A DNA stretch of 44,875 bases from an uncultured Mycoplasmatota bacterium (GTDB lineage: Bacteria; Bacillota_I; Bacilli_A; RF39; UBA660), in the NCBI GenBank assembly GCA_947574215.1, contig CANPIX010000008.1, positions 1 to 44,875 on the forward strand. Reading direction: 5' to 3'. Shown here piece after piece: positions 1,393-4,892 of the stretch (positions are counted from its first letter, which is position 1; every line of letters starts with the position of its first letter). A program made the position numbers and the translations under genes. Under the pieces are notes generated by a model. That model saw only the letters and a program-made list of their open reading frames with translations, had not been told where the DNA came from and made no database searches.

Positions 1393-1905
1393 TTAGAAAA
1401 TCCTTCCTAAAATGCCATATGAAAAAATCAACATAATAATACCTGCTAAAACTACCCCTAAAAGAGCAGCAAATAAAGATTTCTTTTTATCCATGTCAAG
1501 AAGTGCTGCAATTAAACAGCCCATCCAAGCTCCTGTTCCAGGTATTGGAATACCAACAAACAAAAACAAACCTAAATATTTTAAATTTTCTATTTTATCT
1601 TTTTTAGAATTAGCTTTAGCCTCACACCAACCCACGATTTTTCCTAAATGACGCCATTCACGCATTTTGCGAAAAATAGGATTGATCAGCCAAAGAATAA
1701 AAGGAATTGGAATTATATTACCAATAAAACAGATAAAAAAGCTTTGCCACATCGGAAGTTCTAATAAACTTGCAGCTATTAAACCTCCTCGTAGTTCTAA
1801 AATAGGAACCATAGAAAGAAGAAAAATAATAAAATATTTCCCAAATAGACTTCCTGCAACTCCGCCAAATAAACCAATCATAAAATTTGCCAATTTTTGT
1901 GTCAT
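1393..1905 (-). CDS. Small multidrug export family (COG2426-type) membrane protein
   Basis: This polytopic membrane protein of about 170 residues matches the putative small multi-drug export family. It has a first hydrophobic segment ending in VPILELRGGL, a second around LPMWQSFFICFIGNIIPIP, a cytoplasmic basic loop (KMREWRHLGKIVGW), then LFVGIPIPGTGAWMG and a last membrane pair. The paired G-x-P-x-P-G motifs and the ELRGG motif are conserved in the family. Real transport activity has rarely been shown, so the name is only a family label. The ATG at 1905 is preferred because GGTGAT lies four bases before it. The in-frame GTG at 1914 and ATG at 1911 lie within or beside that site. It is the first gene of a two-gene unit with the phosphatase-like gene. 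Confidence 0.75.
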   Translation of the reverse strand: MTQKLANFMIGLFGGVAGSLFGKYFIIFLLSMVPILELRGGLIAASLLELPMWQSFFICFIGNIIPIPFILWLINPIFRKMREWRHLGKIVGWCEAKANSKKDKIENLKYLGLFLFVGIPIPGTGAWMGCLIAALLDMDKKKSLFAALLGVVLAGIIMLIFSYGILGRIF

Positions 1906-2011
1906 ATGCATCACCTATTTAAAATTTAATATTTACCCTTCTCAATTATTACCATTTTATCACAAAATTCATCGATTTACTATCTGCATTTTTATAAATA
2001 ACTGAAAACGA

Positions 2012-3210: not shown

Positions 3211-3240
3211 AATAAAACTCCCCTTTTCTAAAGCATTCGT

Positions 3241-3271
3241 ATTATACCCCCCCCCCGAAAGCTTTTGTCAA
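3241..3271 (-). promoter_or_regulatory. Promoter with a 10-G tract in the spacer (putative phase-variable switch)
   Basis: On the minus strand a perfect TTGACA (3271-3266) and a perfect TATAAT (3246-3241) are separated by 19 bp (3265-3247). The ten bases next to the -10 box are all G (C at 3247-3256 on the plus strand). Losing two G would give the optimal 17-bp spacing. Transcription would start near 3234, giving a leader of about 24 nt that carries the ribosome binding site for the gene at 2050-3210. Confidence 0.85.
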
Positions 3272-3288
3272 GTATTTATAATATTAGA

Positions 3289-3316
3289 AAAAGAACACAT
3301 GATTTTGTGTTCTTTT
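3289..3316 (-). terminator. Intrinsic terminator downstream of the sensor kinase gene
   Basis: AAAAGAACAC at 3289-3298 pairs with GTGTTCTTTT at 3307-3316 around an 8-nt loop. On the minus strand the hairpin is followed by TTTTTCTAATATT. It lies about 150 bp after the kinase stop and just before the -35 box of the next promoter, so it isolates the poly-G promoter from read-through. Confidence 0.75.
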
Positions 3317-3447
3317 AAAGTGTGAGTTTTGAGTTTATATGTTATTTAAATTGTATAGAGTTATCGTTATTTATATATTTTCTTTCTAAACGGTATACAT
3401 CCCTTCCTTTCTATGACTAAATCATAACAAAGGAATATGACAAAATT

Positions 3448-3470: not shown

Positions 3471-4892
3471 TTACTTTACAATTTCAAAGTAAAAAGTAGT
3501 TCCATGCCCTTTCTTACTTTTAACTCCATATTTAAATTTGTGCATTTCTAAAATGTTTCGTACAATTGATAAGCCTATTCCAGTCCCTACAACATTACGC
3601 GTATGATTTTTTTCATTCTTATAATATTTATCCCAAATATAAGGGATATCTGAAGTTTTAATGCCTTTACCTGTATCAATGATTTCCACTAAAAAATATT
3701 TTTCGTATTCCACGATTCGAATTCGTACCTTTTTATCTTTTCCAGTATAATTAATAGCATTATTCAATAAATTGTAAATTACTTGATTCATCTTATTTTT
3801 ATCCGCTTTTACTATTGCTTTTTCTGGCAACTCCAACACAAACGTATACTTTTCCGTTTCTTTAATAATATCGTAACGATTTAAAACGCTGTTTATCTGT
3901 TCTACTAAATCATAAGTAGAAACATTTAATTTTTCACTATTGGCTTCTAATTTAGACAAATCAAGTAAATCGTTCACCAATATATTTAATCGATCCGTTT
4001 CTTCGATAATCACATTTAAATCCTTATTTCGCTTTTCCTTATTTTTATAAGAAATATCACGAACCATTTCGGCGTATGCTTTAATCATAGTAAGCGGCGT
4101 TTTTAAATCATGAGAAACATTCGATAATAAATCTCTTCGTAATTCATCAATACGTTTCATATCTTTACAAGTATTATTTAACGTTCTTGCAAGTTCATCA
4201 ATTTCCAAAGTTCCGTTTTCTTTAAATACAACATCGTAATTTCCTTTCCCCATTTCACGTGCTTTTTTCGTCATGTTAATAATTGGTTTCGTTATTTTCT
4301 TCGATAAAAAATAAGCAAGGAAGCAAGCAAACACTAATACTAAAAACATAATATAAATTAATTGACCTTTTAAAACAATACTAGTAGAATCAATATCTTC
4401 TAAACTACTATAAACAAAAACATAGCCAGTATTTACATAAATGCTGTATAAGTAAGCTTTCGTTTTGTAAGTCGGATTCACAAGCTTAACACCACTTTTT
4501 TTGGTTTCTTTATTTTTTAAACTATTTTTAATCTTATTAATACTAGCAATATTTTTATCTAGTCCACAACCAACTTGCAATGTATTATAAGTTACAACCG
4601 TTCCAAAATTCGATTCATATTCTATACAAACTCCATTTTGATAAGCTAAAGAAGTTAAAGTATTGTCCAAATTTTCTAAGCTGGTACTATCAATCTGATT
4701 TACAATTGTATTCATTTTTTTAATTTGATAATGTTCATAACTAAACTGTAAAAATAGGCCTTGAAAAACCCATAAAAAAACGATAATACCAATACTAAAC
4801 AAAATCAAATACAATAACGTCTTCATGTTCAGACTATTCTTTTTGGATTTTATAGTCTCTTTAATTTCTTGCCATCTATTCTTTGTATTCAA
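3471..4892 (-). CDS. Membrane sensor histidine kinase
   Basis: This 473-residue kinase has a first membrane segment at about residues 24-46, an extracytoplasmic sensor region of about 125 residues, and a second membrane segment at about 175-197. A HAMP linker (about 198-250), a HisKA domain and an ATPase domain follow. The phospho-accepting histidine is H261 in NVSHDLKTPLTMI. The N box is NLLNNAINYT near 375, the G1 box IIDTGKGI near 405 and the G2 box GTGIGLSI near 436. It would sense an external or envelope signal and phosphorylate the partner regulator. Its ATG overlaps the end of the regulator gene by 17 bp, so the two are translationally coupled. The sensor region matches no family I can name, so the ligand is unknown. 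Confidence 0.93.
   Translation of the reverse strand: MNTKNRWQEIKETIKSKKNSLNMKTLLYLILFSIGIIVFLWVFQGLFLQFSYEHYQIKKMNTIVNQIDSTSLENLDNTLTSLAYQNGVCIEYESNFGTVVTYNTLQVGCGLDKNIASINKIKNSLKNKETKKSGVKLVNPTYKTKAYLYSIYVNTGYVFVYSSLEDIDSTSIVLKGQLIYIMFLVLVFACFLAYFLSKKITKPIINMTKKAREMGKGNYDVVFKENGTLEIDELARTLNNTCKDMKRIDELRRDLLSNVSHDLKTPLTMIKAYAEMVRDISYKNKEKRNKDLNVIIEETDRLNILVNDLLDLSKLEANSEKLNVSTYDLVEQINSVLNRYDIIKETEKYTFVLELPEKAIVKADKNKMNQVIYNLLNNAINYTGKDKKVRIRIVEYEKYFLVEIIDTGKGIKTSDIPYIWDKYYKNEKNHTRNVVGTGIGLSIVRNILEMHKFKYGVKSKKGHGTTFYFEIVK

Follow-up and report, generated by a model that had tools for sequence, protein, structure and literature searches.

Switching of promoters by slippage in poly-G tracts is textbook knowledge for Neisseria, and the dependence of sigma-70-type promoters on spacer length is well established. 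In Neisseria fetA and opc, promoter spacing is altered by slippage in poly-C tracts. In the vlp system of Mycoplasma hyorhinis, which comprises tandem lipoprotein genes, a poly-A tract lies in the promoter spacer region. The spacer of Neisseria meningitidis porA contains a G tract (9-11 G) whose length alters the spacing; a change from 11G to 10G halves the amount of surface protein and 9G lowers it about 13-fold, so that the response is graded and not on/off (PMC3639595).

The promoter described here was found in a window of 44,875 nucleotides (the whole stretch of DNA that was analysed) from an uncultured bacterium. It shares the arrangement of porA, and graded expression would likewise be expected. 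It differs from porA in belonging to a different phylum, in having perfect consensus boxes and in its recurrence in dozens of genera, with up to 23 copies per 1-Mb genome. Its targets are mainly Gram-positive surface proteins and an ABC transporter and, in the window, an uncharacterised cytosolic protein. Homopolymer slippage is the common feature with fetA and opc, but the tracts there are of C, a version that is absent on the sense strand here. As in vlp, a homopolymer lies in the promoter and arrays of paralogous surface genes with individual switches occur; unlike in vlp, the homopolymer is G rather than A, the loci are dispersed as well as arrayed, and the hosts have peptidoglycan genes, as inferred from a D-Ala-D-Ala carboxypeptidase-like gene ahead of an ABC operon. 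Like Campylobacter and Helicobacter, this genome also has G tracts within the reading frames of glycosyltransferase and surface genes, although control at the window locus is transcriptional and not translational. The open-access literature yielded no report of phase variation in RF39-type or uncultured Bacilli, nor of poly-G promoter switching used across a whole lineage of gut-type Bacilli. The class of mechanism is known; the host group, the breadth, the sense-G rule and the dispersed near-identical cores appear to be unreported as far as that literature shows.

The promoter and its genome

On the minus strand, positions 3271 to 3241 read TTGACA, AAAGCTTTC, GGGGGGGGGG (G10) and TATAAT (Table 1). 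The original description of perfect hexamers on this strand, separated by a 19-bp spacer ending in G10, was confirmed in the sequence; the spacer consists of nine non-repetitive bases followed by the ten G's. Its remark that such a run is improbable in AT-rich DNA also held, as a first-order model gives 0.001 expected runs of C>=10 in the window (27.7% GC), where no other C run is longer than 5 bases and no G run longer than 4. The 31-mer pattern of the promoter has a single exact match in the genome (1,112,514 bp, 40 contigs). A generic promoter scan missed it because only spacers of 16-18 bp were considered. Spacers of 19 bp are absent from the 27 perfect promoters of this genome that lack a tract.

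Table 1. Features of the window and other long G tracts of the same genome
Feature	Position	Strand	Sequence or basis
-35 box TTGACA, perfect	3266..3271	-	Sequence and pattern match
Spacer, distal non-repetitive part	3257..3265	-	AAAGCTTTC; pattern match
G10 homopolymer, proximal spacer, abuts -10; proposed slippage switch	3247..3256	-	0.001 expected in window
-10 box TATAAT, perfect	3241..3246	-	Sequence and pattern match
Ribosome-binding site AGGGGAG of controlled gene	3218..3224	-	Read from sequence
Controlled gene, 386 aa	2050..3210	-	Cytosolic-looking, uncharacterised family; coiled-coil C-terminus; possible PBECR4-like N-terminal domain
Intrinsic-terminator-like hairpin and T run, between two-component operon and switch promoter	3289..3316	-	-11.6 kcal/mol, z = -5.4
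Upstream neighbour, sensor histidine kinase (HAMP, HisKA, HATPase_c)	3471..4892	-	Domain search
Downstream neighbour, Sm_multidrug_ex family membrane protein (PF06695)	1393..1914	-	Domain search
Promoter of same design	C33		TTGACA-AAGAGTTC-G10-T-TATAAT
Promoter of same design	C9		TTGAAA-AAGAGTTC-G11-TATAAT
Plausible promoter of prepilin-like gene (MKNKGFTLVE)	C31		TTGAC-G10-TGTGTTTGAT-TATACA
Tract between start codon and long frame, out of frame	C17:21626 (L031)		Glycosyltransferase-like ORF, by eye
Tract between start codon and long frame, out of frame	C21:7910 (L032)		Membrane-anchored surface-type ORF
Tract between start codon and long frame, out of frame	C34:363 (L035)		Membrane-anchored surface-type ORF
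Tract at end of 351-codon frame	C15:20638 (L030)

The -10 box lies 30 bases from the ATG of the 386-aa gene. Just upstream of the -35 box, the terminator-like hairpin ends the two-component operon, and the 386-aa gene therefore probably depends on the poly-G promoter. Equivalent hairpins lie upstream of the orthologues in genomes G020 and G018 (z = -1.3 and -4.7, respectively). Separately, about 60 bases between the stop codon of the sensor kinase and the hairpin are near-identical in three species, in which the flanking proteins have diverged (window 3289-3370, minus strand; L037:1316-1352; L041:3188-3224). This stretch is possibly a small RNA or a conserved 3' element; an Rfam search returned no match for it.

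Across the genome, the first-order model predicts 0.05 runs of G or C of length >=10, and eight of 10-11 were observed. In each of the eight, the G's and the downstream gene share a strand. At least three of the eight lie in promoter spacers, and at three others a start codon and its ORF are in different frames, which gives these genes the look expected of the phase-OFF state, as far as can be judged from reading frames. The window locus would then be one of several poly-G contingency loci of this genome, of both promoter and reading-frame types, within a lineage-wide strategy. Loss of mismatch repair was rejected as the cause of the tracts: 20 of 22 congeneric genomes, this one among them, encode MutS, and the slippage rate should consequently stay moderate.

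Occurrence in related genomes

Genomes were assigned to genera and families by kinship only, and the name Bacilli for the wider group is inferred from the label of one congener and from gene content. The search of relatives for promoters with G or C runs, which had been suggested as a check, was performed with patterns for both bases. TTGACA and TATAAT enclosing G>=7 were found at 36 perfect sites in 14 of the 22 congeneric genomes. With G>=8, there were 226 sites (table sum) in 57 of 386 family genomes, representing 39 of 150 genera; the highest count per genome was 23 (G402). Members of six further families of Bacilli (f7, f12, f13, f16, f18 and f21) have such promoters as well. The reversed pattern had no match in any search (22 congeneric and 386 family genomes), and the sense-C version had none in the 386 family genomes.

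All 36 congeneric spacers measure 15-20 bp, and of the further 141 family sites that were listed, 134 have spacers of 14-21 bp, with patterns that permitted far more. The tract is immediately preceded by C on its 5' side in 30 of the 36 congeneric promoters; it abuts the -35 box in some genera and the -10 box in others. This specificity of position and strand rules out chance, base composition and poly-G sequencing artefacts as the source of the pattern. Why only sense G is used is unexplained; the rule would point to an unknown mechanistic constraint and has a physical cause that can be tested.

Loci whose flanks are otherwise unrelated share spacer cores such as AATAAGACAT, as though copies of the promoter had spread through the genome, although this is suggested by sequence resemblance alone. 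A recurring promoter core, e.g. TTGACAATAAGACAT-Gn-TATAAT, was seen upstream of different genes in G414 (L211-L220) and in G281 (L204-L210).

Gain, loss and length of the tract

The gene family of the window has members in 40 of the 386 family genomes. Among 23 tract-free loci of this family, a 17-bp spacer gave the best TTGACA/TATAAT-like solution in 13 and a near-equal solution in three more, whereas the spacers of the tract-bearing orthologues are 19 (window, G10), 15 (G020, G9), 19 (G413, from another genus, G12) and 18 bp (G133). This contrast indicates that the tract was added to an ordinary 17-bp promoter. It was probably gained more than once in this family, and assemblies that bear it tend to lie off 17 bp. 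In the congener G018 the orthologue has decayed to a pseudogene, with its tract interrupted to GGGGGAGGTGGG. A second promoter, that of an ABC transporter, was compared among orthologues by means of the gene upstream of the operon, which was identified by eye as D-Ala-D-Ala carboxypeptidase-like; the tract is present in G005, G009, G010, G013 and G014 and absent from G000, G006, G016 and G017.

In four genomes of genus g158 (L166, L167, L168 and L169), the tract of the window gene's orthologue lies in the 5' leader instead and measures G10, G11, G10 and G7, respectively. Behind each tract come CCCTC and a T run, and a perfect promoter with a 16-bp spacer lies about 100 bp upstream. This is a different arrangement, possibly attenuator-like.

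A difference in tract length between related promoters with constant flanks was taken as one criterion for a phase-variable promoter of the porA type. It was met by paralogous promoters in relatives: in ten genomes, copies with identical spacer flanks differ solely in tract length (e.g. 11/12 in G281, 10/11 in G176, 13/16 and 11/12 in G197, 9/10 in G414 and G278 and 10/11 in G253). Two copies in G281 agree at 99% of 77 flanking bases, yet have 11 and 12 G's. Tract lengths overall range from 8 to 16. All identical-flank copies are of uniform length in G402 (G9 in seven copies), G163 (G9 in six copies) and G292, from which it follows that the tracts are not wildly unstable and that the rate is moderate. 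Tract lengths from short-read MAGs may be wrong by one base. For the window promoter itself, the length comparison is confined to orthologues (10, 9 and 12 G).

Implausibly long G runs were noted in G018 at C10:10508-10555 (about 50 G) and at the start of a contig (C38:1-18). They look like two-colour Illumina artefacts, and tract lengths from this genome need caution.

Proposed mechanism and alternatives

The original proposal of a porA-type poly-G promoter has gained strong comparative support from the 39 genera, the empty control searches, the differences in length and the 17-bp tract-free orthologues. The architecture, its recurrence, the strict sense-G orientation, the length differences and the 17-bp spacing that is usual in orthologues without a tract were observed directly. 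Switching itself was not observed; the phase-variable reading is strongly supported by comparison of sequences. We consider it very probable that the window promoter is a contingency promoter with a spacer set by slippage, the slippage rate, the effect on expression and the benefit being inferred. RNA polymerase with the housekeeping sigma factor would recognise TTGACA and TATAAT. At replication, slipped-strand mispairing within the G tract would add or remove one or a few G's, and the spacer (currently 19 bp, G10) would shift around the usable range of 16-18 bp. Daughter cells would thereby differ in transcription of the 386-aa gene, by degrees or as a switch, in a heritable and reversible manner. 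The original proposal took G8 (17 bp) as the optimum and the present G10 state as weak, both of which are unproven suppositions. We lean slightly towards G10 being a low or intermediate state and G8-G9 a higher one. This expectation as to expression is inferred and is held with limited confidence, because a G-rich spacer may shift the optimum, which beside a G tract may not be 17 bp.

The tract could instead be a fixed regulatory element, acting through protein binding or DNA shape, with its length kept by selection and no slippage switch. The strict sense-G bias (226 versus 0) exceeds what slippage alone requires and would suit such an element, as would the single length across all copies in G402 and G163 and the repetition of cores where the flanks are otherwise unrelated. 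We nevertheless regard it as unlikely: lengths vary over the full range given above and are unequal in copies with identical spacer flanks, the position of the tract (at -35 or at -10) differs by genus, orthologous genes occur with or without it, and frame-shifting tracts are found within ORFs of the same genome. The long runs of overlapping G9 matches in G018, together with several contigs that terminate within about 80 bp of a tract, might suggest an assembly or sequencing artefact of the two-colour Illumina poly-G kind. Such an artefact would not select the gap between TTGACA and TATAAT, nor a single strand in 386 genomes; moreover, the window tract is internal to a contig of 44.9 kb, and orthologues from two other genera share it. 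This explanation can be virtually discounted.

It is also conceivable that the tract is neutral, the promoter being equally active from G8 to G12 or the gene being transcribed from elsewhere. Expression data are absent either way, which leaves room for this reading, but the terminator-like hairpin separates the promoter from the upstream operon and the broken tract in G018 goes with a dead gene. Effects of spacer length are, moreover, established for promoters of the sigma-70 type. In porA itself they are large between 11G and 9G (PMC3639595). We hold a neutral tract to be very unlikely.

The controlled genes

By eye, the window protein has no signal peptide; in the family alignment the N-terminal domain is conserved and the C-terminus is coiled coil. 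Searches of the window protein against Pfam, NCBIfam, PHROGs and the PDB gave only coiled-coil noise, no relative of it was found in annotated phages, and a single-sequence structure prediction (pLDDT 36) was set aside. The nuclease-like domain that had been suggested for this gene found only weak support. One of 25 family members matches PBECR4 (PF18813; phage-Barnase-EndoU-ColicinE5/D-RelE-like nuclease) with E = 3.9e-5 and 24.5 bits, under the cut-off of 27. For the window protein, this profile gave no match, above the cut-off or otherwise. PBECR domains are predicted RNases of conflict proteins of phages and mobile elements (PMC5512222). A nuclease-like role is a lead only, and activity is unproven.

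In relatives, the genes downstream of poly-G promoters encode mainly surface proteins, lipoproteins and pilins, which are classic contingency targets. Secreted and prepilin-like proteins are among the products, as are an Ig-like repeat protein, an ABC ATPase, a UbiA-family prenyltransferase, a DUF3419 protein and members of several unknown families. We think it rather likely that much of the surface biology of many mostly uncultured, reduced-genome lineages of Bacilli is governed by one shared design, in which a perfect sigma-70 promoter carries a non-template-strand G tract in its spacer. The tract would be repeatedly gained and lost at the same genes, in places dispersed as copies of one core, and would reach phages and non-surface genes (the ABC transporter, a sigma-factor-like gene and the PBECR4-like family of the window). 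If so, dozens of genera, mostly uncultured, hold sets of stochastic expression switches, and since these can be read directly from DNA, population-level switching would be measurable in existing metagenome reads. The Neisseria-type trick looks routine for diversification in these bacteria.

Three further observations concern individual loci. A protein with sigma-70 regions 1.2 to 4 is encoded downstream of a poly-G promoter in G009 (L060:1501-3030) and is a possible phase-variable sigma factor. In G340 (L248, C6:14000-30000), six tandem paralogous secreted proteins of about 480 aa each have their own poly-G promoter, an array that looks like a combinatorial surface-variation locus. The same promoter pattern is present in six IMG/VR viral contigs (L159, L160, L161, L162, L163 and L164); at L162:5051-5083 it lies between terminase-like and portal-like genes, ahead of a gene for a small membrane protein.
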